From: Dillenia suffruticosa
Lineage: Eukaryota > Streptophyta > Magnoliopsida > Dilleniales > Dilleniaceae
Length of the DNA: 64,000 nt
Assembly (NCBI GenBank): GCA_033439265.1
Contig: JAVTVX010000027.1
Span: 12,601,001-12,665,000, forward strand
Direction of reading: 5' to 3'
In this document: piece by piece, positions 4,013-60,600 of the stretch
Position numbering within the stretch: position 1 is the stretch's first letter
Layout: every line of letters starts with the position of its first letter
The notes under the pieces: generated by a model
What the model was told of the DNA's origin: nothing
What the model saw: only the letters and a program-made list of their open reading frames with translations
The model's database searches: none
Made by a program: the position numbers and the translations under genes

Positions 4013-4081
4013 CCGACTGGAATGCTCTCGGTGTGGAAAGCCCGCTAAAGAGAGAGCAAGGACGTGGGTTGGGTTTCTCTT

Positions 4082-6439
4082 ATGCCAGTTGTCAATCAAA
4101 ACAATGTGTTCAGAGTCTCTCGTTTCCTTCCCTTCCTATCTTTCCACTCATCAACATCAATTTCTACCCTCACTAACCGCCGTTTTTCCTATTTCTTATC
4201 CCATAATCAAGTCTCTGACCTCCCTTCTCTCCTCCAATTTCATTCTTACATCATCACCACCGGCAATGCCAACAATATTTTCGTATCTGCAAAGCTTATC
4301 TCTCTCTACTCTTCATACAACCAACCCTATATCTGCACCAAAATATTTGATTCGATCAATCCCAAAGACAAAGACACCTTTCTTTGGAACTCTGTCATTA
4401 AGTCATATTTCTCAAACGGATACTACTCTCTAGCCCTTCAATTTTACAGTCAAATGCGATCTTCTAACACCACACCTAATCAATTCACCATTCCCATGGT
4501 TGTTTCTGCTTGTGCAGAGCTTCATTCAGTAAAATATGGCAAAGCAATTCATGGGTTGTCCTCAAAATTGGGAATTTTCGATGGTAATTCTGCTATTGGG
4601 TCGAGTTTTGTTTACATGTATTCAAAATGCGGTGAAATGGACGATGCCCACGTGGTGTTTGACGAAATTCTTGTTAGAGATGTGGTTGCTTGGACGGCTC
4701 TTGTTATTGGGTATGTGCAGAATGGAGAAAGTGAAAAGGGTTTGGTGTGTTTTAGGGATTTGCATAGGATTGGTAGAGATAATGGTGAAAGGCCCAATTG
4801 CAGAACCTTCGAAGGCGCTCTTCAAGCTTGTGGGAACTTAGGGGCTTTCTTGGAAGGTAGATGTTTACACGGTTTAGCAATAAAAACTGGAATTGTTCAG
4901 TGTGCGCAAGCTGTAGAATCCTCGCTTTTGTTTATGTACTGTAGATGCGGGACCCCACAAGAAGCATATTTTTCCTTTTGTGAGGTTTCAGATAGGGATC
5001 TTACATCTTGGACATCAATCATCAGTGTGTATGCAAAAAGGGGGTGTGTGAGGGAGAGCATGGTTCTGTTTTCTGAAATGCAGACTTCTGGGGTCCACCC
5101 AGATGAAATTGTTTTGAGTTGCATGCTTTTAGGTTTTGGTAATTCCATGAGGATTTCAGAAGGAAAAGCATTTCATGGGTATATTATAAGGGCAAGCTAT
5201 GAACTAGTTCAATCTGTTTGTAATGCATTGTTGTCAATGTACTGTAAATTTGGACTTTTTGATCGTGGAGAAAAGCTCTTTGGTGGAGTATGTGAGAGGA
5301 ACATGGAGTCTTGGAATATCATAGTTGATGGATATGGAAGGATAGGACTTGAAGCAAAGTGCATTGAACTCTTTAGAGAAATGCAGCACCTAGGTGTAGA
5401 ATGTGATTTTAGCAGCTTGGTCACCGTAATAAACTCCTGTTCCAAGTTAGGTGCAGCACAGCTAGGCATGTCTCTCCATTGTTATGTGATAAAAAAGTTG
5501 GCAGATGTAGATATCTCGGTTTCAAATTCCCTTTTGAACATGTATGGCAAATGCGGCAAATTTGAATTTGCTTGGAGTTTGTTTGGTAGGACAAGGAGGG
5601 ATACCATGACATGGAACACATTGATCTCAGTATACAATCAAAGTGGCCATTTCTGTGAGGCCTTATCCTTATTTGATAAAATGATCTCTGAAAAAGCAAA
5701 ACCAGACTCAACAACATTCAGAAACCTTTTGTCAGCTTGTTCGAATCTAGCATCTTTGGAGAATGGTGTGAGGATTCATAGTTACATAAAGAAAGAAAAG
5801 TTTGAATTAAATTTATCTCTTGCCACTGCACTTGTGGATATGTATGCTAAATGTGGTCAACTTGAAAGATCAAGAGAGGTTTTCAATTTAATTGAGGAAC
5901 GGGATGTTATTGCTTGGAATGTGATGATTTCTGGCTATGGAATGCACGGAGATGTTCAGTCTGCCATTGAGATCTTCAGACAGATGGAAGAATCAAATGT
6001 CCAGCCTAGCGAGGTCACCTTTCTCGCTCTTCTTGCTGCCTGTGCTCATGCAGGGCTTATCAAAGAAGGGAAGTATCTGTTCCATAGAATGCAACTTTAT
6101 GGTCTGTCACCCACATTGAAACACTATGCTTGCATGGTAGATCTTCTTGGCAGGTCGGGTGATCTGCTGGAGGCTGAATCTTTGGTTCTATCAATGCCGA
6201 TTCCTCCTGATTCAGGTGTTTGGGGAGCTTTACTTAGTGCTTGTCATTTGCACAATGATGTTGAGATGGGAATAAGGATCGGAAAGCAAGCCATTGATTC
6301 TGATCCTGAAAATGATGGGTACTATGTACTGCTTTCCAACATGTATTGGTCCATGGGTAAGTGGGAGCAGGCAGAACAAGTGAGAGGATTAATGAAAGAG
6401 AACAGAGTGAATAAGATTGCTGGTTGGAGTGTGACATAG
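4082..6439 (+). CDS. PLS-class (E-type) pentatricopeptide repeat protein, At4g39952-like
   Basis: This is an intronless 785-residue gene, as usual for plant PPR genes. The first in-frame ATG is 4082; the frame is open slightly upstream but without an ATG. Residues 1 to about 40 are rich in Arg, Ser and Phe and fit a mitochondrial transit peptide. Then follow tandem PPR motifs of the P, L and S kinds (for example WNSVIKSYFSNG, YMYSKCGEMDDAHVVFDE, MYAKCGQLERSREVF, NVMISGYGMHGDVQSAI) to about residue 690. The end (WGALLSACHLHNDVEMG to KIAGWSV) is an E motif; no DYW deaminase domain follows. Such proteins bind organellar RNA, and E-class members usually specify C-to-U editing sites, recruiting a DYW partner. 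Order and wording agree throughout with Arabidopsis At4g39952 as I recall it. The RNA target is unknown. The frame is intact and looks functional. Confidence 0.93.
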   Translation: MPVVNQNNVFRVSRFLPFLSFHSSTSISTLTNRRFSYFLSHNQVSDLPSLLQFHSYIITTGNANNIFVSAKLISLYSSYNQPYICTKIFDSINPKDKDTFLWNSVIKSYFSNGYYSLALQFYSQMRSSNTTPNQFTIPMVVSACAELHSVKYGKAIHGLSSKLGIFDGNSAIGSSFVYMYSKCGEMDDAHVVFDEILVRDVVAWTALVIGYVQNGESEKGLVCFRDLHRIGRDNGERPNCRTFEGALQACGNLGAFLEGRCLHGLAIKTGIVQCAQAVESSLLFMYCRCGTPQEAYFSFCEVSDRDLTSWTSIISVYAKRGCVRESMVLFSEMQTSGVHPDEIVLSCMLLGFGNSMRISEGKAFHGYIIRASYELVQSVCNALLSMYCKFGLFDRGEKLFGGVCERNMESWNIIVDGYGRIGLEAKCIELFREMQHLGVECDFSSLVTVINSCSKLGAAQLGMSLHCYVIKKLADVDISVSNSLLNMYGKCGKFEFAWSLFGRTRRDTMTWNTLISVYNQSGHFCEALSLFDKMISEKAKPDSTTFRNLLSACSNLASLENGVRIHSYIKKEKFELNLSLATALVDMYAKCGQLERSREVFNLIEERDVIAWNVMISGYGMHGDVQSAIEIFRQMEESNVQPSEVTFLALLAACAHAGLIKEGKYLFHRMQLYGLSPTLKHYACMVDLLGRSGDLLEAESLVLSMPIPPDSGVWGALLSACHLHNDVEMGIRIGKQAIDSDPENDGYYVLLSNMYWSMGKWEQAEQVRGLMKENRVNKIAGWSVT

Positions 6440-9990: not shown

Positions 9991-10793
9991 TTAACAAGGT
10001 TCAAATTATTGAAGTGACAAAGAATTAGAAAGGTTTCGCTGTTGAAATCATTAAAGCTTTCTAGAAGAGGATGAGCACTTGTTGAGGCAAAAGAATTCCT
10101 CCAAGATAGGTTTTAGTTATGTATATGAATGCTCAAATCTAAATATTAAAATTGTAAAGAAGATTCCTTTTATAATTAAGCAAATTAAAAAAGAAAGCAA
10201 CATCACTTCTCTATATTCAATTGTTTTTAGTTATTATCTTTTTTTTTTTTTGGGTGCATTTCATTAACAAGCACGCTTAGGAGAAAAATAAAATAAAATG
10301 TAAAATTAAATAAAAATAAAAATAGACTAGGATAATCTTTCTATTTATATTGCTTGATGTTAAATTTAAATTAAATTAAATTCCATTTATATTAAATAGA
10401 ATTTTAATTAAAATACAAGAAAAAAATCCCAAATAAATAAATAAAATAAAAGTAAATTTAAAAATAAAGCAAAAAACTAAAAAAAATATGTTACATATAT
10501 CATGCCTCGCTCCAATCAACAATTTTTTTTATTCTTCATTATTTTTTCATTATGCTTCAGAATTCTTCCTTGCCAATCTTAGATTTGCTTTTATTTGTTT
10601 ATTAATTTCTTATTTTTATTTTCTTTTGTATTTATTTTATACCTTGTCATCTTTTATATTTTACAGGTGTTGGCAGTTGCTGTTGTTATCTTTTATATTT
10701 TATAATTTGGATTTTAATTTATTTTGAGTTTTTCAAATTTAATTTAATAGTTTTAGGGTTTAATTTACTTTATCCTTATTGAGAAAAGAATTA
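9991..10793. other. AT-rich non-coding interval
   Basis: Mostly A/T with short T and A runs. Open frames are short, start without support and encode Phe/Tyr-rich low-complexity sequence. Nothing recognised. Confidence 0.4.
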
Positions 10794-10865
10794 GGTTCTG
10801 TAGGGTTTGAACCTACAACATGGGTTTTGGAGATCCATGTTCTGCCAAAGTAAACTAAGAACACC
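10794..10865 (-). pseudogene. trnW-CCA: Decayed organellar tRNA-Trp(CCA) gene in nuclear DNA
   Basis: Read on the minus strand, the 72 bases follow plastid trnW-CCA almost position by position: TTCTTAGTTTACTT for the D arm, GAACATGGATCTCCAAAAC with the CCA anticodon, and GTAGGTTCAAACCCTACAGA for the T arm. Most differences from the plastid gene as I remember it are C-to-T or G-to-A, the usual decay of organelle DNA in the nucleus, and acceptor pairing is damaged. Plant mitochondria carry the same plastid-derived tRNA, so the donor may be either organelle. I see no neighbouring trnP or petG, so the fragment is short. Confidence 0.8.
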
Positions 10866-21768: not shown

Positions 21769-22179
21769 GGCTCGGTGTGAGCGAAAGAAAACAATAGTTG
21801 TGAGGCAACAAGGACAAAAGAGAGTGGTAGGTTTTTAATCTACCCCTGAAATTTCTTGAACAATTCGACTGTTCTTCTTCTTCTTCGACCGTCCCTGTTA
21901 TCCTGGCTTCTCTGTTTCCCTTTCTGTCTGTCTGTTTTTCAAATTATTAAAAATTGTAAATTTGTTTTCACTTTTAGATTTTGTTGGAAATCAGGTGATT
22001 TAGAACAGAGATCCAGAGTAATTTTTCCTTTTTTGGATCAACTAAAGAGGGTTTATTTTTCTCTCCCTCTAAAGGTTGGATCTTAACTGAAGGAAAGAAA
22101 AGGGTTTGTTTATTGAGACCTCTTTACTTAATTTTTAATCTGATTTTGTGTTCGTAAAGATTTTTGATAGAGAAGCAAA

Positions 22180-22341
22180 ATGGCTGCGGCTATAGATTTG
22201 TACGGTAGCAGAGCAGTGTTCTCAAATCCCTCGAGTGCAGAAGAGCTAGTAAAAGCCCTTGAACCTTTTACGAAAAGTGCTTCTTCCACCACCTCTTCTT
22301 CTCCATCAACTTCATCACAATCTCCTTTCTCTTTCCCCTTC

Positions 22342-22372
<31 letters not shown>

Positions 22373-23130
22373 CTTCTTCTTTATACTCAAACCCTGAAAT
22401 TTATCCAGATTTCTTGAGCCAAGACCAAATGGGTATTTCTCTACAAAGTTCATTTGGTCTAAATCGTCTCACCTCATCTCAAACTGACCAAATTCAGACC
22501 CAATTTCAGATTCAGCAACAACAGTTAGCTGCTGCTAGTTCTCTCAACTTCCTTAGCCCGAAGCCTGTCCAGATGAAATCGGTTGGAGTTCATCTGAAGC
22601 CAACGAAATTGTACAGAGGAGTGAGACAGAGGCATTGGGGAAAATGGGTTGCAGAGATCAGACTCCCAAAAAACAGAACTAGACTGTGGCTTGGCACTTT
22701 TGATACTGCTGAAGAAGCTGCTTTAGCTTATGATAAAGTGGCTTACAGGCTCAGAGGTGAGTTTGCCAGACTCAATTTTCCTGATTTAAAGCACAATAAA
22801 GCTTCCTTGCATTCCTCTGTTGATGCGAAACTCGAAGCTTTATGTCAGAGCTTGGCTGATTCTCAGAAACAGGGGAATTCCCAATTTGTCTCTGAATCAA
22901 AGAAAACTAAAGTTGGGAAATCGAGGAAGAATTCGGTCTCGGAGGAACCACCTCAGCCAGTGAATTCAACACCGGAATCGGAGTCTAAGACATCGTCGTC
23001 AGAATCTGAAGTTACTTTAATTGATCTTGCAGAAACAGAACCAGATTGGGCAGAATCTAATGATCTGATGCTACTTCCCAAGTATCCCTCAACTGAGATT
23101 GATTGGGATTCTATTCTGTCTCAGATGTGA
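22180..23130 (+). CDS. RAP2-4: AP2/ERF transcription factor, RAP2-4/RAP2-13 type (DREB A-6)
   Basis: Intronless, 316 residues, in the size range of Arabidopsis RAP2.4. The start [10 protein letters not shown] and the [13 protein letters not shown] segment are typical of the subgroup. A Ser-rich stretch (residues 32-70) includes a pure Ser run coded by a CTT/TCT microsatellite. The AP2 domain spans about residues 144-201: [19 protein letters not shown], then the [16 protein letters not shown] helix. Val at domain position 14 and Leu at 19 fit DREB subgroup A-6. [20 protein letters not shown] follows, and the acidic C-terminus ends in EIDWDSIL, both conserved in this group. Family members are nuclear, bind DRE/GCC-type elements and act in light, drought, salt and cold responses. 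The symbol is at group level; RAP2-13 is equally possible. Confidence 0.93.
22341..22381 (+). repeat. Trinucleotide (CTT)n microsatellite inside the coding sequence
   Basis: About 13 uninterrupted CTT units encode the poly-Ser run of the RAP2-4-like protein. Triplet length changes would keep the frame, so the tract may vary between individuals. Confidence 0.9.
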
Positions 23131-23483: not shown

Positions 23484-23800
23484 TTAACACCGGAAAGATA
23501 TAGAAGGAAGATAATAAAGTTTTCAAAGGGGTAAAACCTTAAAACTTTAAACAACAACGACAAACTAAAAATTAAAACTTCCAAAAAAATTTTATTATTT
23601 CAAAAGAAATATTATCAATAAAGTTTTCAAAATAAAGAAACACCATAAATATTTATAAAGTTAATACAAACTCTAAAATTAAGAAATTAAAAAATTAAAA
23701 AATTAAAAAAGTAGAAAAATTAAAAAATTAATTAAAAAAAAAAAAACTTAAAAGGGTCAAAAAGTGGTTAAAAAGATTTTGGTAGCAAACATACACCACA
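23484..23800 (-). repeat. 3' LTR of the Gypsy fossil
   Basis: Shares an ordered series of words with 29546-29850 (CAGGAAAGATA-like start, TTTTCAAAATAAAGAAACAC, ATAAATATTTATA, AACTCTAAAATTA). A-rich and much diverged. Confidence 0.65.
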
Positions 23801-26064
23801 AAGTCTTCTTGAAATTCAGGGAAGTATCAAACATACACCACAAAGTCATCCAGAAATGGCTAATGATCTGAAATGATAGATTTTGGTACACCATATAAAT
23901 GTACTACTTCCTTAAAGAAAAATTGTGTCACATGTGAAGCATCCGAAGTCTTCTTGCACGGAATAAAGAACACCATTTTTGAAAACTTGTTGACAACAAC
24001 AAAAACAAAATCGATCCGACGTTGAGTGCGGGGTATCCATAGATAGATCTTCCCAGATAGGTTCAGGGACTGGTATGTGTAGCAATGACTCACGAACTTG
24101 GCCACGTCTCGCTTTAATTGAGGCCAATAATACCATTCCTCCAAATTGGATAGTCTTCTCTTGCCCCAAATGTTTACTCAAACCACCCCATGCAAGTCAT
24201 GAATTAATTTTTTCCTTAAAGAGTGTGGGGTATACACAATCGATTTCTCTTCAAGAGATACACATTGTGTTTATAAAAATTTTGAAAGGAGACCTTTCCT
24301 TGTATGTCCGCAAAGTTATCGTTATTAGCATATAGTTCCAAAGGATCTCAAAACCCATAACCTCATGACTCAAAGTCACTAACAAAGTTGCACGCCTACT
24401 CAAGGCATCGGCGGCTTTATTCTGGCTTCCCAACTTATGCTTCAACATGAAGGAAAATTGCTGCAAATAAGTAATCTACTTGGCATGTATCTTGTTAACA
24501 TTTTTCTAGTTGTTAATATACTTCAAAGCCTAGTGAACGGTATATAGAACAAACTGGTCTTGGATGAGATAGTGCTTTGAATTCCTTAAAGCCCAAGCAA
24601 TAGCATAAAGTTCTTGGTCGTAGGTTGACCATTATTGGCATTCTTCACTCAACTTCTCAATGAAATAAGCAGTCATCCCTCTTCCCCAACTCCAACTCCA
24701 CAAGCATCACATTCCACAACAAATAATTTATCAAAGCTGGGAAGTGCCAACACGGGGGGCTGTACACAACTTTTCTTTAATCAAGGTAAAACTTTTCTCC
24801 TGCTCAACACTTCATCTAAACTGGCCCCCTTTTTAAACAATCCGTTAAAGGCGCTACAATAGTGCTGAAATTGTGAATGAATCTCCTATAAATGGTAGCT
24901 AGGCCATGGAAATTTCGGACTTCAGATACTAACTTTGGTGTTGGCCAGTCTCAAATTGCCTTCACTTTCTCTTCATCTACTTGAATCCCTTCACGACTAA
25001 CTACGAATCCCAAGAAAATTAGGCTTGACTGCAAGAAATTACATTTCTTCAAATTAATATACAACTTATTCTCTTATAAAATAACCAAAACCTATCGCAA
25101 ATGCTCCAAGTGCTCGGCCTTATTAGTGCTGTAAAATAAAATATCATCAAAATAAACTATAACAAATTTATCAATAAATGGTTTCAGCACCTCATTCATC
25201 AACTGCATAAAATATGCTGGGAGCATTAGAGACTCTTCTTAGTCTCAAAAGATTTCTTCACTCATCTCTCGATCTGATTCGGATATGATGATACCCACTT
25301 TGCATATCATTCTTTGTGAAGACTGTCGCACCAAAAAGCTTATCAAACATATCCTCAAGGCGAGAAATTGGGAACCTGTACTACACCATGATCTTATTGA
25401 TTGCCTAGCTATCCATACACATTCGCTAGCTCCCAACCTTCTTTGGGGTTAATAAAGCATGTACTACACATGAAATCTTCCTGACTCGGACAAACCCCTT
25501 GTCAAGCAACTCCACCATTTGCTGTAGGATCTCACTCTCTTTAGAATTCATATGATAATGGGTAGATTTGGCAAAATAGCCCCAAGTACCAAATCAATGG
25601 CATGTTAGATATCTCTCATTAGAGGGAGTCCCACCGGGAGTTCATCAGACATTAGCTCCTGAAACTCGTTCAACAAATCACGAGAGATAAGGTAATTGTT
25701 CACCCATCCTTTTGAAACCGGTAAGTATTATTGTAAGTTGCATCCAAATCATACTGCCAAGGTCTACCAAACAATAAATAGCAAGCATCCACTATTTCAC
25801 ACATTATTTCATCCCTATAATATTTACCAATAGTTAACGGTACTCGACACCTTTCTATCACTCTAATTCCCTCTCCGTTTGCAATCCACAATGTTATAAC
25901 ATTAAGAATGTTTTTCAACAGGTAATTTCAAAACATCCATCAAGTCTCATGAAATAATATTTTCATAGCTACCATTATCTATAATTAACTCAAAAACATG
26001 ATTAGAATGTGTGCACCTCGTTCGAAACAGTACATTCCCACTACAAAAAAACACGGCATCGGGG

Positions 26065-26630
26065 ACAGATTTAGCGACAGAAATCTTAGAAAAATTCGTC
26101 GCTAAATATTTTAGTGACGGATTTGGCGACGATATTTTTTCGTCTCTAATACGACGTCGCAAAAGTTTAGCGATGGAAATATGATATTCGTCGCCAAATT
26201 AGCAACGAAAAATACTTCGTCCCAAGTTTTCGTGGCTAAATTAGCTACGGATTTTGTGACGGACTATAATTGCCTCGCTAACGTTAGCGACAGACAACGG
26301 AGTCCATCGCTAAACTCTGCGACGGACAGGGTTATCCGTCGCTGAATTTAGCGACGGACATTTACATCCGTCGCTGAATTTTGCGAGGGACAGATATATC
26401 CGTCGCTAAATTTTGGCGACGGACATCGGTATCCGTCGCAAAGCTCAGCGACGAATGCCTTGATCCGTCGCAAAAGTTAGCGACGGAGAGTCGTATCCGT
26501 CGCGAAACTCAGCGACGAATAGTCGTCTCCTTCGCTAATCTCGGTCAATATTTGGCGATGGAAATACTTATTCGTGGCTAACTTGATGACGAATTTGAAA
26601 ATCCTTTGGCGACGGACTTTGCTACGAATC
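26065..26630. repeat. Left subterminal hairpin array of the CACTA element
   Basis: Roughly 36-40 bp units, each an inverted pair such as AGCGACGGA, 7-9 bases, then ATCCGTCGC; most use the GACGGA form. These are the presumed binding sites of the TNPA-type protein in this superfamily. Confidence 0.85.
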
Positions 26631-27121
26631 TTTAAAATTTTTTAAAAAAAATTCCGTTTGTTTTAATGTCCAATTGAACAAACCCTGTGCAACCAACATT
26701 CAGATATTCAATCCAATTAAATCTGTGCAATAAAATTTAAATATCCAACATTGAAATATCCTTGTTTAGGAAAAAAAAACCTGTGCAACCAACATTCAAA
26801 TATCCAATTGAACAAAAAAATCCATCAGTCACTATCCAATCCAATATTATTCATATGCAACCAAATATTCCATTCATATGCAATGGAACCAAAAATCCAT
26901 CAATGTTTGGCCAACGAACTTCTATATAATAAATTTACAAATATTTCAATCCAACAAACATCCATCGAATAAGAGTTTGTGCATCGAACAAATTGTGAAT
27001 TAAATGAAAGTGAAACAAATGTAAATAGTCTAATGTCCAACATCAAAGATAATAATAACAAAATAAATATCGTCCAATATCTATCCAAGAACAATATGTG
27101 AATAATATCGAACAAACAAAC

Positions 27122-27196
27122 ATCTGAAATCTGGTCGCATAGCTTGTCCGGGTGACCCTCGTTAACAGACTCAGAGGTGAAGAGGAAGGTATCCAT
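27122..27196 (-). pseudogene. Captured 5' fragment of an S-adenosylmethionine synthetase gene
   Basis: Minus-strand ATG at 27194-27196 opens 25 codons, [20 protein letters not shown] followed by DQISD, identical to the N-terminus of plant SAM synthetase, the enzyme that makes S-adenosylmethionine from methionine and ATP. After residue 25 the match stops and the frame runs into unrelated sequence, so this is a fragment without catalytic residues. Just upstream on the same strand a TTGTGCTGTGCAG acceptor-like site (near 27230) resembles the end of the leader intron usual in these genes, which suggests capture from genomic DNA. A 22 bp tandem duplication overlaps the start codon. It lies wholly inside the CACTA element. 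Confidence 0.88.
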
Positions 27197-27225
27197 TGCT
27201 GCAGAGGAAGGTATCTATTGCTGCA
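27182..27225 (-). repeat. 22 bp tandem duplication across the captured start codon
   Basis: 27182-27203 and 27204-27225 differ at one base; one copy has the ATG of the SAM synthetase fragment, the other reads ATA. The duplication may be from the donor gene or may have arisen during capture. Confidence 0.85.
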
Positions 27226-28779
27226 GAGCTGCACAGCACAAGCAAAGGTAAACACTTTATTATACAAGCATTTAGTGGCGAATGAATCTCTTGTTGTGAA
27301 AAGTCAGACGAACCTCATCGGATCCTCTAGAATAAAGAACATCTTAAAAGAACATGCTTATTCCTCAATAGCGATGAAGATGCCTTGTAATGAATTCCTA
27401 TCGTGGGCAACTCCGGAGAATCAGATTTCAAGGTGGTCTTATAATGTTGAATGGATCAACATTATTGAGTAGAAGAACAAGAACATTGTAACAGGAGTAT
27501 TTTACCTTTTCCCCATACTTCAGTTACTCATCTCTATACCTTAAGTTCATCATAGCATTTCCTGGAGTAGGCTTATCAACGCAAATAGAGAAGCGCCAAA
27601 TGAGAAACACAAGAAAAGCATCCAGTTCAGCTTCACATTGAAATAATAATCCAGGCTAATCCCAATACAAGAAGATGAAGAAAAGTAAAATGCCAGAAAA
27701 AAGGAGCCAGATTACTCATAAAAGGAGAGTAACAAGATAATGAAATAAGCCCGCCCAATAAGTGAAAAATAACAAACAAGTCAAAGTAGAGATTTTGAAC
27801 CCAACCCTTTGGGGGTTTGTGGTGACAAAACAATACATTAGTGGTTCAAATAATCCCCCTTCTTCTCCAATTAGAAAAGGAAAAGAACAAAGTTAATCAG
27901 AGAAGGAAAAAATAGTCATGATAGATACCTTCATTAAATTGAACACTTTTACCAACTATTCTTTCAGCATTGCCAACACCTCAATATCCAATCTTGCTGC
28001 ATCAACTTGATTAACTCTATAAATCAAAACTGGGATAGTTAACTGCTGAAAATTGTTGAAAGAAATTGTAGTTTGGAGAATCTAAAATATTGATCCCAAA
28101 GCAACTTGCAAGGAAAAATTTCTACCATGGGGATCTAATGCATGTGTAATTAAGCATGGGCACACAAAGAAAAATCCTCATAAATGCACATAGAGAAGCA
28201 TGTACACGGGAAAATAGTGACCACCTAGATAAATATTGAAGAGGTAAAAGAAAGATCGGATAATCTTAAATTCAACTAACTGTATTTATCAATGAAAGGA
28301 ACAAGTGATTTCCTTAAATATAAAATGACATAGTTCAAATGCGAAGTAAAACTCCATCCAAGAGTTCTCGTGTTTGTTTTAAAGACAATTTGCGATGGAA
28401 GTTTGCCTATGAAATAAAAAAGAGAAAAAAATTCTCCAAGTCTAAACCTTGTAACCATTCGCTACCTTGAGAATTTGATCCACATACTTTAGATTGCAAA
28501 CCTAGCATAATTATGGAAAAATAAAAAGAATCTATATTCTTTTTCCCGGACAAATCTACACAAAGATCGAGAGTTTCGTAGTGATTGAAAAAAAATTACT
28601 TTTTAGAGATTGATTATATATTATTTATTGTTGAAAATTATTTATTTAGTGAAATTTGTAATATTCACTATATATTAAACTCCATTTTGTTAGTAAAAAA
28701 GAGAGATACGGTTCAAAATAATTCGTAATAGAGTACAGAAGAAATTTAGCTATGAAATTAGCCATTAATTTTGAAATAC

Positions 28780-29185
28780 AAGTCATGATTTTGCGATGAA
28801 TTTAGCTACAAAATTTTATTTGTGGCTATTTAGTGATGATTTTAGCTATGAAAATGGAAGTGAGTTCGTTATTAGCCACGAAAATAGCGACGAATAACTT
28901 TTGTGGCTAATTACTGATGAAATTTCCGACGAACAATTTTTTCGTAGCAAAATTTAGCCACGAAATTTCTATTCCTGGCTAAGTGGTGACGAATTTTGCC
29001 ACGAAAAAGTTTTCGTGGCCAATTACCGACGAATTTAGTCACAAATATTTTATTCGTCTCTAATTTGGAGACAAATAATTTCTGTTACGAATTTCGTTGG
29101 AAAAGGGCGACGAAAAAAAATGCCGTCGCTAATGTCGTCGCCAATTAGCGATGAAACTATTTCATCGCTAAAATCCATCGCTAAT
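28780..29185. repeat. Right subterminal hairpin array of the CACTA element
   Basis: Same design as the left array but with GACGAA, CCACGAA and other variants prevailing, and more diverged (for example GCCACGAAAATAGCGACGAA). Confidence 0.8.
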
Positions 29186-29545
29186 CCCGTGTTATTTTGT
29201 AGTGTCCGTTATGTATCATCTTGCTTAGGGCCCAACAACACCTTTCTAACCATCAGAGTTTGCACATCTTCGTTTAAAGAATTATCCTCGTTGGTCTAAA
29301 CCCTATGAGATTGTTGGGGTAATACAGGATTGATGTGAGGTCCCTGAGCAATTCTCCTGGTGCGACCTTCATCTCCTATTGATTTCCCTGCAACGTCTGC
29401 AGTTCTGTTTTTGCCTACTCCATTCGAATGGATAGAGTTTGGACTGCAGTTGTCATGATTCGCATCTCTCTGAGTACGTAAAAAAGAGTACTACCTTCAC
29501 TGCTCTGGTTGGCCATCGTAAGGAAAAGCCTTGACTCTGATACCA

Positions 29546-29880
29546 TCTAATACAGGAAAGATAGAAGAAAGACAATAGGTTTGCAAATGGATAAAACTCT
29601 AGAACTTTCAAAGAGAATTATTATTTAAAAAAAATAGTATAAATGAAGTCTCCAAAATAAAGAAACACTATAAATATTTATATAATCAATACGAACTCTA
29701 AAATTAGGAAACTAAAAAAAGTAGGAAACGAGAAAAATTAAGAAATTAGATAAATTAGAAAATCAGAGAAGTTATGAAACTAATTAAAAAGACTTGAAAA
29801 AGTCGAAAAGTGATAAAATGATCAAAAGTTTACGGATTCCTTTTCTTTTCTTGGACTGATCCCACATAACTCAATAATTA
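29546..29880 (-). repeat. 5' LTR of the Gypsy fossil
   Basis: Adjacent to the primer binding site (29533-29545) and similar to 23484-23800. The far end was not determined. Confidence 0.65.
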
Positions 29881-31320
29881 TCTAAAACCTATTCCATATC
29901 AATAAAACATTATGCAATAATGTTGTCAAGTAAGGACAATATTTCCTTAAATTATAATTAAACTGGAAGACATTTTCCTTTTGATATTGTAATTTATTCC
30001 TTATTAAAAGATAGATTTTAGTTCAATTACTCTGCCTAGGATCCAATGACGACTACCCAATATATGCCACGGGCATGTGTAGGGATGATGTCAAATTAAT
30101 TTAAGCTAAAGTAATTTAATTGGTAAATAAATTCTAAAACATGGAATCAAAATAAAATTCATGTAATAATGAATTATAATTCAATTGATACCATTTAATT
30201 TTTTTTTTTAAAAATTTGGAATATGAATTTCTCTTGTGTATAAAAAAATAAATAAATTCTTTGTTTTATTAAAAACTATATTTAATATAATCTTGAGGAG
30301 TACTTTTATGGATAAAACCTAAGATAAGCCACAAGGATTTTCATCGATTTTTTTGTAAGATTTTGTTTTAGATCGATAGGTGTCCGAATTTATATTTTAA
30401 TTAATTCGATTTAAAATTTATTGAACTTAATTTAAGAGATTACTTTCTAAACGTAATTTTTTTTTATTTTCATGTTTTGAAATTTGAAATTTGATTAAGA
30501 AATTTAATACCCTAATCGATTAGATATATATATATATATATATATTAAAGATTTGAAAGGGAAATATAAGCAGAGAAAGGATAATGAATGCAACCATCCA
30601 AATAAGTGTCGACAAATCCCTCGTTGACTTACTTTTTTTTTCACAAAAACGCAACATTCAAGTGCTCCAATTATTGTAATGCATGGAAGGCATTGCTTCC
30701 GGCATTCATTCAACCACAAGCTTGAACAGTTGCCTGGCTCCAAACATCACATCCCCCCGTTGCCTTCTCCAATCCCTCACATGCTGAACATGCAAACCAT
30801 AACCTCCCTCTTGACTTATGAAAGTTCAATTGTTTGTTTTTTATTAAGAGTTAAAAAAATTATTATTTATAGAAACCACCAAGATCATTACATCTCTAAT
30901 TTGGTCGATTAAAGAAATCCACCTTAATCACAAGTTATCTATAATTTGGAATAAATGAATTATTTATTAATATACATCATTGGAGTGCTTTCTATAATCG
31001 ATAATTTGGTCCATTGGAGCGCTTTCTATCTAAACTTTCTCAGATTCAATGTCTAAACAAAACATAATTAGATAATAAGCCACCATGTTACTGTAATTTG
31101 AAATACAAAACTCCATTGACATTGTTAAAGTCACCTCCTGAAAAAGTAATGATCATGAAAATCTACAACTATGCTATTCCATGACTACTTATCACACTAC
31201 CTGTCTATGGCTCTTTTATGGTCTGATTTTGCCACAAGAGTAAGAAAGCTGTTCATAGGCCAAATAGAGCACATAAAAAAGTTTCTTGCCAAATTCTTGA
31301 AACGTGGGATGGATCACGAT
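29881..31320. other. AT-rich intergenic region with a (TA)n tract
   Basis: A (TA)11 microsatellite lies at 30523-30544. Bases 30590-30800 have balanced composition and a 79-residue minus-strand frame without a known family. Nothing else supported. Confidence 0.4.
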
Positions 31321-54677: not shown

Positions 54678-54689
54678 CATTACAAAAAA

Positions 54690-55280
54690 ACACGGCTTTT
54701 GCGACGAACTTTTACGACAAACGTTTTTTGTTGCTATTTTGCGACGAATTTATCAACGAAAATATTTTTCATAGCCATTTGCAACGATATTAGAGACGAA
54801 AGAAAATTCGTAGCTAACTTAGCGACAACTACAAATTCGTTGCTGATTTCAGCGACGAAAAACTATTTCGTCGTAGATTTCAGCGACGAACAGATGTTTC
54901 GTCGCTAATTTCAGCGACAAATACAGTTTTCGTCGCTTTAATAGCAACGAAAAGAGCGTTTCGTCGCAGATTTCAGCGACGAACAGGAGAATCGTCGCTG
55001 ATTTCAGTGACGAACCTTCTTTTCGTCGCTGATTTCAGCGAGCGACGAACTTTGTTTTCATCGCTGAATGTAGCGATGAACAGGAAATTGGTCGCGGATT
55101 TCAGCGACGAAATTAATATTTGTCGTTGAATTTTAAAATTTTACGACAAATGAAGCAACAAAATATATATTTGTCCCTGATATGTGCGACGAAACATGGT
55201 TCGTGATGAGAAAAATCCATTGTTGATGCCTTTCAACGATGGAAATGGGATTTTCAGTGATGGATTTTTCCGTCGATAAA
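54690..55280. repeat. Subterminal hairpin array, first block
   Basis: Units of about 36 bp such as AGCGACGAA, 6-9 bases, TTTCGTCGC, joined by TGATTTC linkers; at least ten units. They belong to the same motif family as in the 26-29 kb element, with GACGAA in place of GACGGA. Confidence 0.9.
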
Positions 55281-55299
55281 AGTTTGTTTTCTAGTAGTG

Positions 55300-55925
55300 A
55301 ATTTTCTGCTTTATTTTTAATTTTTAATAAAAATTAGAAAATGTTTAAATTTTACACGACATTTTTCCTAATCAAATATAATTATAATTAAATGAAAGTG
55401 CGCATTTTTATATATAAATCAAGTATTGTAATAGTTAAATGAAACTGCCGAGAGCGTTGCAAGTGTTGATTTATGCATAATTCTTCATGCATTTCCTCTA
55501 TATTTGTATGATTTGCCCCTCACGAATGCACCAATTTGTGCTTAAGGCACTTTGCCTAAAAGTAGGAAAGGGAACCCAAAGCTCATGCATTTGGAGCCGA
55601 AATACGTGGCAAGGATGCCAAAAGGAAAAGGAAATCAACTAAGGTAGAGAAGCCGCAACCACGGATGTCTATAGTAACCACCGGTTAGACTAATAAATAA
55701 TAATAGTAATTAATTGATATAACAAAAAAATATAATCAGTTAGTTAGTTAGTAATAGTAATTAATTAAGTAAATAGTTAGTAATTAAAATAATTAAAAAA
55801 ATATATAAAGATATGAGATGAAAAAATAATAATAGCATGTCATGAAATTGATTTTTGAGCATACTTTCTCTTCCGTAGACATGTACAAAATTAATTCAAA
55901 AAAAAAACTTTAAAATAACCTAAAA
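55300..55925. other. Unique-looking spacer between the two hairpin blocks
   Basis: About 625 bp without the hairpin motif and with no frame or recognised family. It is either native to the element, a later insertion, or ordinary genomic DNA if two separate elements are present. Confidence 0.4.
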
Positions 55926-55929
55926 AGGT

Positions 55930-56400
55930 AATGATTTTAGCGACGAACAGCTAGTTCGTCGCTGATTTCAGCGACGAAAATCTTGTCCATTGCTGATTTC
56001 AGCGACGAATTAGTTTTTCGTCGCAAATTCCAGCGACGAAAACACATTTCATCGCTGATTTCAGCGACGAAGTAGTGTTTCGTCGCAGATTTCAGCGACG
56101 AAAACTCGTTTCGTCGCAGATTTCAACGACGAAAACTCGTTTCGTCGCAGATTTCAGCGACGAACAAATGTTTCGTCGCTGATTTCAGCAACAAATATAA
56201 AATTTGTGGCTAACTTAGCAACAAATATGGAATTTGTCGCGGATTTTAGGGACAAAAATAAAATTTGTTGCTGAATTTAGCGACAAAATTAATATTTGTC
56301 GCTGATTTTGTTGCTAAATTCGTTAATTTTGTGACAAAAACAGTTTGGTTGCTGATATCAACAACAAATTAAAATTTGTCACTGATTTCGTCGTAGAATT
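55930..56400. repeat. Subterminal hairpin array, second block
   Basis: About 12 units, several nearly identical in tandem (56060-56190: CGACGAAAACTCGTTTCGTC recurs). No CACTA terminus precedes it. Confidence 0.9.
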
Positions 56401-56840: not shown

Positions 56841-57660
56841 TTAATTTTTTTTCTTAGAATTTATATATTATATCATTAACTTTATATATAATTTATTATA
56901 AATTATTATATATTATAATTTTAATAATATTATAATATTATATATTATAATTTTAACATTATAACATATATTATAACATATTATATTTTATAATTTTATA
57001 AGATTATGTATTATAATGATTTGAACTTATTTTATATATTATATATTATAATTACGGTAATTATAACATAATTATAATTATATAATTTTATATAATGTTT
57101 TCTGATATATATATATATATAATAATATATAATATATATAATGCAGAATTTGAAATGGATAATATTCTCTACATATTTAAAAATTTATAATACATATAAT
57201 GCTATATATAGTTAATATATATTGTTAATCTTATATAATATATTTTAATATTAGATTAATTCTAAATAACATTAATGATTTTGTATTGCAGATGTGTTTG
57301 CTCTGATTGGACGTGTTGTTCAATTAGAGGGGAGAAATTCTTGTCTTGAAGCGGTCGAGGTATATATTTTTTCTTCGCATAGTTTCTTTTATTTTCTTTG
57401 TTTTATATCCCTTGTTTCTAGTTTCCATGTATATATGTTGTATATTCGCGAAATGCAATAGTTATAAATTTTTTTGTTATTTTTTTCGACTCAAATTTTT
57501 ATATTTGTTAAATTTTCTGAAAATATGTTAATATTTTTAAAATGTTTTGTTATTAGATGTTCATTATTTTTTATTAATGTTTTTTTTTCAATATAATATA
57601 TAGTTTGTTAATACTTTATTTATTAATATTTTATAAATTTTATTTTTGTAAATAGCGACA

Positions 57661-60600
57661 ATGCAAAACGAAAGAAATTGGATGTATAATAAGAATTTAC
57701 CTGATCGTCGTGGTTTAACTGATAAATTTATTTGTGGGGTGGAACAATTCTTGAATTTCGATACTAGTAAAGTTGAGTTTATAGATGGGAATAAGTTAAG
57801 ATATCTGTGTATAAAGTGTGGTAATGGCAAATTTTATATATGTGATAAAGTTAGGAAATATTTTTATAGATTTGGTTTTACTTTTAATTACTACAATTGG
57901 ATTTGTCATGGTGAACCGTTTATATCTAATGAAGAGTATGTACAAAATATGGATTATTCAGTTAGAGGGGATAACAATTATTATGATCAGTTAAATCCAT
58001 ATTAGCAGATGATATTTGATGCAGCGGGTCAAAATTTAGTTCCCCAATCAAACTATGCAAGTTCTAGTTTTGTACTAATAAATCAAGATGTACCTACAAG
58101 TTATGCATCACCATTGGAGGGGGTAGAAGCAACATATGTCAATGAGAATGTGCAAGATGAAAATTATTTATCTAACCAATTTCAAGAAATGTTGAGAGCT
58201 ACAGATGAACCGTTATGGGTTAGTTGTGACACCCACACTAAGTTGTCATTAACGGCTAGAATGTTAAATGTTAAGGCAGAACATAATTTGTCTGAGAATT
58301 GCTTTAATGATATTGTTCAAGTAATAGGAGAAGTATTGTCTCGTGATCATATAATGCCGAATGACTTTTATAGTATGAAAAAGTTGGTGAATGACTTGGA
58401 TCTTCCGGTGGAAAGAATTTATGTATGCAGAGATGGTTGCATTTTATTTTGGAGAGCTGATGAAAATGTACAATTTTGTAAATTCTGTAACCAAAGTAGG
58501 TACAAGAGTACTAGGACAGCAGGTCATAATCAGCGACCTAAACCATTCAAGCAAATGTTTTATTTGCCCTTGACTCTTAGATTGCAAAGACTTTATACAT
58601 CGAAAACTACTGCTGAATATATGACTTGGCATGCAAATCATCAAACAGAAGAAGGGTTAATGTGTCATCCTTCGGATACAGAGGTATGGAAAAATTTTGA
58701 TATGACATATCCTGAATTTGCAAGAGAGACTCGAAACATTAAGTTAGGTCTTTGTGCTGATGGGTTTGCTCCATTTGGAAAATTAGGGAAAACTTATTCA
58801 TGTTGGCCAGTGATATTAACTCCGTATAATATTCCTCCGGGTATGTGTATGAAAACACCCTATATGTTTTTGACATTGGTTATACCGGGCTTGCAAAATC
58901 CGAAGAAGTTGATAGATGTTTATATGCAACCGTTAATTGCGGAGTTAAAACAATTATGGGATGATGATGTTCTTACATATGATGTTAACACTGATCAGAT
59001 GTTTGTAACGAAGGCAACTCTTCTTTGGAAGATAAATGACTTCCCAGCTTATGGCATGTTATCGGGATGGAGTACTGCTGGGGTTTTAGGATATCCAATA
59101 TGCATGGAGAGATCTAAGTCATTCAGATTGAAATACGATAAGAAGACGTGCTATTTTGATTGTCATAGACAATTTTTGGCACAAAATCATAAATTTATAA
59201 GAAATAAAGAAGAATTTATGAAGAATAAAGTTGAAAAAATACCTCATCCGTTAAGATTAACTGGTCAACAAATTTGGGAGCGAGTGTCTCACTTTCCATC
59301 TATTATTGAAGACCCACATGGTACAACGTATGGATATGGAAGTGTGCATAAATAGACCAAACGGAGAATATTTTGGGACTTACCATATTGGAAGACCCAT
59401 CTGATTCATCATAATCTCGATTTGATGCATATCGAGAAAAATGTTTTCGAAAATGTGATTAATATATTGATGGATGTTTCTGGAGAAACGAAAGATAACT
59501 TAAATGCGAGAAAAAATATGCGGCTTCATTGTAATCGGCCTACATTTGATGTGGATGGAAGTAGTAAGGGACCAAAACCAAAGGCAATTTATACAATAAA
59601 TAAGGATCAGAGACGGAATGTTTGTGAATGGTTGAAATCGCTTAGATTTTCTGATGGTTATGCCTCAAATCTTGGGATATGTGTCGATATGAAAGAATGC
59701 AAGTTGATTGGTTTGAAAAATCATGATTGTCACATATTTATGGAAAGATTGATTCCGATTGCTTTTAAGGAACTATTACTAGATTTTGTATGGGGCGTCA
59801 TTACAGAGTTAAGTATTTTCCTGCATGATATTTGCTCGATAGTATTAAAGGAATCACATATTGCGAAATTAGAGAGAGATATCCCTATCATTTTGTGTAA
59901 TTTAGAAAGGATTTTTCATCCATCATTTTTTGATTCCATGGAACATATTTTGGTTCACTTGCCTTATAAGGCCAAAGTTTGAGGTCCCGTCCAATATCGA
60001 TAGATGTATCCATTTGAAAGGTAAATTTTGCACATTCTCTTCATAACAATATTTAGAGTGCATGCCATTGTACTAAATTCATTATATCTCATTTTCTGAT
60101 ACACTTTATTTAATTACAATTAGATTTTTATATCATTTGAAAAGAAAAGTGAAAAATAAGGCACGGGTTGAAGCCTCTATTGTTAATGCATACATTGCGG
60201 AGGAAGTGACAACTTTTGCTTCATATTATTTCGAACCTCATGTCCAATGTAAGAGACGGCGAACGGGCAGAAATGATGAGGGTTCTATTGATCCTAATTT
60301 AAAATCATTCTCTATTTTCAACTATCTCGGTCGACCAAGTGGATCATGTAAAGTTAGATATTTAACTGCTAAAAAATGGCGGGCAGCCCATACATAAAGA
60401 ATGGCGTGTGTGCGATGAAGAATTTGCAGTATGGTTCAAAACATATGTTAGTTTTGCAAATGTTAAATTTTATAAATATTTGATTATTAAAGAAATAACA
60501 CATTTATTTTACTTCAGGTTCAATGTAATCAAGATCAAGTTGAACAAGAATTGTTATTAATTAATCTGTCATGGGGTCCAAATTCAACGGTACAAACTTG

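Follow-up and report, generated by a model that had tools for sequence, protein, structure and literature searches.

CACTA transposons carrying pieces of host genes have been described from several plants. The soybean element Tgm-Express1 holds five host gene fragments together with their introns and gives rise to chimeric transcripts (PMC1947982), and on wheat chromosome 3B 140 CACTA capture events were reported, 17 of the captured genes representing potential exon shuffling (PMC4290129). For Pack-CACTA elements, capture has been attributed to neighbouring insertions that are mobilised as a single unit (PMC8903248; PMC13317346). The element described here, 3166 bp long and located in a 64-kb window (the whole stretch of DNA that was analysed) that is plant DNA judging by its genes, resembles Pack-CACTA and other Pack-TYPE elements, which have terminal inverted repeats, target site duplications and coding DNA captured from one or, in some cases, several loci, and lack transposase (PMC8903248); within the window it is seen as one copy, and it may or may not belong to a multi-copy cluster of that kind. 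We identify it with high confidence as a non-autonomous Pack-CACTA transposon holding genomic fragments from two host genes unrelated to each other, S-adenosylmethionine (SAM) synthetase and peroxin 2 (PEX2), that were taken up as DNA, a confidence which applies to identity and uptake as DNA and not to the route of uptake. Its features are listed in Table 1.

Table 1. Features of the CACTA element, with positions in the window and the basis on which each was assigned
Feature	Position	Strand	Basis
Non-autonomous CACTA element with two captured host gene pieces (Pack-CACTA)	26039-29204	no strand	inverted ends, target site duplication, length, transposase family absent among 60 segments
Target site duplication TCC, left copy	26036-26038	no strand	flanking triplet
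Left terminal inverted repeat, CACTACAAAAAAACACGG	26039-26056	+	end search
Left subterminal repeat region	26088-26640, limits approximate	no strand	repeat motifs
Open frame of 98 codons (25 SAM synthetase codons and 73 more, then stop)	26900-27196	-	open reading frame
First 25 codons of SAM synthetase, ATG included	27122-27196	-	phmmer against PDB, Pfam
22-bp tandem duplication over leader and start codon	27185-27228	-	sequence reading
Intron-like DNA ending in acceptor-like TGTGCTGTGCAG	27229-27527	-	composition, splice-site reading; origin inferred
PEX2 exon, block two, PGLLFQCEAELDAFLVFLIWRFSICVDKPTPGNAMMNLRYRD and two bases of the next codon	27528-27655	-	Pfam, splice sites, alignment
Retained PEX2 intron, 273 bp, GT...AG	27656-27928	-	composition, splice sites, gapless protein alignment across it
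PEX2 exon, block one	27929-28045	-	frame reading, Pfam, splice sites, alignment to presumed plant PEX2
T-rich stretch 5' of the first PEX2 exon, 41% T on the minus strand	28049-28560, approximate	-	composition only
Right subterminal region, same kind of motif but sparser	28740-29186, left limit approximate	no strand	repeat motifs
Right terminal inverted repeat, inverted copy of CACTACAAAAAAACACGG with 1 mismatch	29204-29187	-	end search
Target site duplication TCC, right copy	29205-29207	no strand	flanking triplet

The element occupies positions 26039 to 29204. Its terminal inverted repeats are 18 bp long and begin with CACTA, as in the CACTA (En/Spm) superfamily, and the flanking duplication is of the 3-bp size typical of that superfamily. 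The initial annotation had described an element with 18-bp ends and TCC duplications, and both were recovered, with a single mismatch between the ends. When up to three mismatches were allowed, the end sequence was found three times in the window against a mean of 0.05 in shuffled sequence, a count of three being reached in 0 of 100 shuffles; the third match belongs to a relative at 54678. The motifs GCGACGG and CCGTCGC, present in both orientations as is usual for CACTA elements, are closely packed over the left 600 bp but infrequent at the right end, and CCGTCGC recurs at six positions from 26336 to 26497 with a spacing of 32-33 bp and with GCGACGG or GCGACGA in between. The left end gave 0 matches in viral_contigs, and blastn of the element against the 64-kb window revealed no second copy of the interior, only short matches of the subterminal type at 54697-56310.

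No Rfam family reached its gathering score inside the element. At a loose threshold, positions 25000-30000 yielded eight matches to four families (MIR6297, AaHKsRNA41, mir-3913 and MIR6136), all within 26286-26524. They score 28.8 to 42.3 bits, below the gathering scores of these families, which run from 97 to 114, and we ascribe them to the symmetry of the subterminal repeats. As a guess, microRNA families such as MIR6297 and MIR6136 may themselves be derivatives of CACTA ends.

To describe its coding content, the element was scanned against Pfam as 60 segments running from stop to stop, none shorter than 30 codons. The best match was S-AdoMet_synt_N (2.7e-11) and the second Pex2_Pex12 (0.0014), while 12 other families matched at 0.0039 to 0.27 and were regarded as noise; among the latter, Flp_N, the N-terminus of Flp recombinase, appeared at 0.038 and was set aside as a match at chance level. 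None of the 14 families matching at E <=0.5 was a transposase family, and as none of the 60 segments matches one, the element is considered non-autonomous, with no internal transposase and with host coding DNA from SAM synthetase and PEX2 between its ends. Transposase domains are encoded by the relative at 54678, approximately 25 kb away, whose end differs from that of the element by one mismatch and reads CATTAC. This relative spans to at least 60961, and downstream of its end lie the domains Transpos_assoc, Transposase_21 (3.2e-75), DUF4218 and DUF4216; its second end was not found within the window. The transposase frame of the relative has in-frame stops, since it is made up of three adjacent stop-to-stop segments of one frame in 57652-59982.

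The surroundings of the element suggest that it was probably inserted in the remains of an old retroelement. Reverse-transcriptase-like pieces lie around it on the minus strand in the region 23485-29827. Four flank pieces gave RVT_1 at 25202-25095 (9.6e-6; 25.9 bits, under the Pfam cut-off of 29.6), RVT_1 at 0.091, an integrase model at 0.07 and nothing, and the three other flank pieces that were searched (3/3) had no Pfam match. Diverged A-rich direct repeats at 23485-23775 and 29548-29827 flank the element, agreeing at 157 of the 213 columns of their best alignment. They are possibly long terminal repeats, but given their A-rich composition and an alignment run without low-complexity filtering they are only suggestive of this. 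Elsewhere in the window, the plus strand carries a frame for a PPR protein with an E motif (4049-6436) and another that encodes an AP2 domain (22171-23127), and a tRNA-Trp (CCA) was located on the minus strand at 10792-10864 by both ARAGORN and Rfam, representing either a nuclear gene or an organelle-derived insert.

The SAM synthetase piece was recognised at high significance. In a phmmer search of PDB its 25 residues retrieved 45 sequences to E 1, named as SAM or methionine-adenosyl synthases or transferases, with the top three E-values at 1.8e-11, 2.0e-11 and 2.8e-11; we take these three to be the Arabidopsis enzymes. The best two, S-adenosylmethionine synthase 1 and 2, agree with the piece at 24 of 25 residues, with E for D at residue 2, in line with the earlier reading that the minus strand encodes the first 25 residues of the enzyme including the ATG. 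Pfam S-AdoMet_synt_N scored over its cut-off on the piece (1e-11), and NCBIfam metK gave 35.4 bits on a 26-residue version against a whole-protein cut-off of 309.4, a shortfall expected at such length. A pattern made from the piece had 0 matches in viral_contigs. The 73 codons that follow, up to the stop codon at 26900-26902, do not resemble SAM synthetase, and their inclusion lowers the Pfam score from 45.7 to 44.3 bits. An equally long open extension arose in 155 of 20000 first-order simulations, which is a weak signal as the test was picked after the frame had been noticed. A full SAM synthetase frame continuing across 27121, which the initial annotation had named as evidence against capture, is absent, the frame departing after codon 25. 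The inverted ends, the target site duplication, the 25 codons and this departure of the frame together bear out its central proposal that a CACTA element captured the start of a SAM synthetase gene.

Upstream of the ATG on the minus strand, acceptor-like TGTGCTGTGCAG ends at 27229, 32 bases ahead of the start codon, as had been noted of the leader. The leader and start codon are covered by a tandem duplication, also picked up in another register as repeat D5, whose copies at 27228-27207 and 27206-27185 differ by one mismatch, ATA in the first copy and ATG in the second. A leader intron is present in many plant SAM synthetase genes. In sunflower, however, all 58 SAM synthetase genes are reported as single-exon and without introns (PMC11598334). 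An intron remnant upstream of the leader is for these reasons plausible but not proved, and the SAM synthetase part of the element comprises the first 25 codons, the leader and probably the end of a leader intron.

A second captured gene lies on the same minus strand, as two exons of PEX2 with the intron between them in place, so that the pieces of both genes are sense on that strand. Block one starts at 28045 or 28042, as two CAG follow each other, and ends with ...NLMK ahead of the donor GTATCT; it includes an in-frame TAG at KE*LVK. The intron that separates the blocks has 46% T on the minus strand. Block two is preceded by TTGGGATTAG and followed at its end by donor-like GTAACT, into which it was extended by one base to supply the E used in the Pfam search and in the alignment to plant PEX2 described below. 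With the exons joined by hand, after the protein had been recognised by eye, and the in-frame TAG given as X, Pfam Pex2_Pex12 scored 26.4 bits (E 6.9e-6), narrowly over its cut-off of 25.1. Block two by itself matched the same family at 0.0014, under the cut-off, and block one by itself had no Pfam match; a single block is insufficient, because noise in the same element starts at 0.0039 against the 0.0014 of block two.

Searches of PDB with each exon singly gave nothing to E 1, and the joined piece retrieved a single sequence to E 10, Peroxin-2, weakly (0.33) and with no individually significant stretch, while NCBIfam had no match for it. The strongest match, 65 of 79 residues identical and gapless through the splice point, was to a sequence that we take to be plant PEX2. 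When checked, this reference sequence gave Pfam Pex2_Pex12 at 2.1e-39 together with a RING finger, and Peroxin-2 in PDB at 1.9e-27. A pattern derived from the PEX2 piece, which took only GAT for the first Asp, had 0 matches in genome_contigs. The T-rich stretch 5' of the first exon is, judging from its composition, probably also PEX2 intron, and the captured PEX2 part would thus consist of two exons, the internal intron and probably parts of the flanking introns.

For the PEX2 piece, the retained 273-bp GT-AG intron rules out a processed retrocopy or a copy of spliced RNA, from which introns would have been removed, and its persistence supports capture as DNA. The initial annotation had argued for capture at the DNA level from an intron remnant of SAM synthetase. 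Uptake as DNA stands, mainly on the neighbouring PEX2 intron, but the intron-like DNA upstream of the SAM synthetase leader cannot all derive from that gene, because PEX2 was captured there as well; positions 27229-27527 should hold the junction of the PEX2-derived and SAM synthetase-derived sequences. Likewise, the extent of 26900-27260 proposed for the capture does enclose the SAM synthetase piece, but the captured DNA goes further, as the exons and intron of PEX2, the gene overlooked in that reading, occupy 27528-28045, and on the PEX2 side it is probably wider still.

As for how these pieces came together, the arrangement fits the published capture by neighbouring insertions. Along that likeliest route, related elements would have inserted close together beside host genes, after which the outer ends would have moved jointly, a process that may have taken two steps. 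Transposase may have been supplied in trans by a relative, for instance that at 54678, and the element would afterwards have jumped into the old retroelement. The same identity could have been reached by another route, in which genomic DNA from PEX2 and from SAM synthetase was inserted independently into an existing element, for example as filler in break repair, without fusion of neighbours. We regard this as possible though somewhat doubtful: the two genes are unrelated, and a review states that another, undiscovered mode of capture may exist for unlinked gene fragments (PMC13317346), but the present sequence is equally compatible with fusion of neighbouring elements. The 22-bp tandem duplication can be counted for separate insertions, being of the scar type that break repair can leave. 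That the 25 codons are instead the remnant of a native SAM synthetase gene broken by a CACTA insertion is almost certainly wrong, despite the presence of an ATG and an acceptor-like leader, as the codons lie ~1.1 kb within the element and not at its edge, the frame past codon 25 is unlike SAM synthetase, and a six-frame reading by eye of the joined flanks (25300-26038 and 29208-29900) contained no SAM synthetase.

Within the Pack-CACTA element, the captured pieces are most likely neutral passengers at present. The speculation that they are active, with a chimeric transcript of the element or small RNAs lowering the expression of SAM synthetase (and PEX2), appears very unlikely to us. Sense-oriented exons with plausible splice sites speak for it, as do the chimeric transcripts recorded for Tgm-Express1 (PMC1947982) and, weakly in view of the 155/20000 simulations, the frame of 98 codons from the SAM synthetase ATG, 73 of them past the captured part. 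However, little sequence is shared with the host gene (75 nt of codons, or 108 nt counting the duplicated leader), there is a stop within the PEX2 part, minus-strand RNA of 27260-27060 folds no better than its shuffles (z 0.88; 162 of 200 at least as stable), and the element has no Rfam family at gathering score. The initial annotation's suggestion that a transcript could pair with the host mRNA finds no support in the sequence: since both captured pieces read in sense from the minus strand, only plus-strand or double-stranded RNA would be able to do so. If the element is transcribed, the leader of SAM synthetase could become the splice partner of the PEX2 exons; carried through such a splice, the PEX2 frame runs into the duplicated leader and reaches a stop 18 residues on, in a frame other than that of SAM synthetase. 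Exceedingly improbable, in our estimate, is a young exon-shuffled gene in which minus-strand transcription, such splicing and the SAM synthetase start codon would yield a chimeric protein of 98 residues, or alternatively small RNAs that would couple the supply of methyl donor, and through it DNA methylation, to the activity of transposons. The methyl donor used in transposon silencing comes from SAM synthetase, and for that reason the finding would weigh more, but only if expression were seen in RNA data.

In open-licence PMC text, none of the matches listed described a CACTA element that had captured SAM synthetase or PEX2, the pair of these genes was not found in one transposon among the matches listed, and the matches listed did not include the end sequence of the element or the PEX2 peptides. 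Five of the papers listed contain 'peroxin' together with a single 'cacta', among them one on a plant genome (PMC9618406), and 'captured gene' occurs in none of the five. The words 'adenosylmethionine' and 'peroxi' are absent from the main text of the reports on Tgm-Express1 (PMC1947982) and on Pack-TYPE elements (PMC8903248), and 'adenosylmethionine', 'peroxisome' and 'peroxin' from the main text of the wheat report (PMC4290129).

The locus shares with wheat chromosome 3B the capture of host genes by CACTA elements, but whereas 46% of the captured wheat genes have a likely functional structure, both pieces here are fragments (PMC4290129). Short host gene fragments also lie inside CACTA elements of Chenopodium, where they come from Neprosin and AP2 and the elements also code for transposase domains (PMC8978399). 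The likeness is to Tgm-Express1, which belongs to the same superfamily and likewise carries fragments of several unrelated host genes with exons and introns retained; its fragments differ, however, deriving from an unknown protein, CDC2, FPK, malate dehydrogenase and cysteine synthase, and it is inserted within an expressed gene's intron and is itself transcribed (PMC1947982), whereas the element here, described from its DNA, lies in an apparent old retroelement. What the locus adds is one more well-bounded CACTA mix of unrelated gene pieces, in which an intron and a start codon have been kept and a transposase-bearing relative with a like end lies ~25 kb off. As an object it is of an ordinary kind, a multi-gene Pack-CACTA element like soybean Tgm-Express1, the pickup of genes being a well-known habit of CACTA elements.
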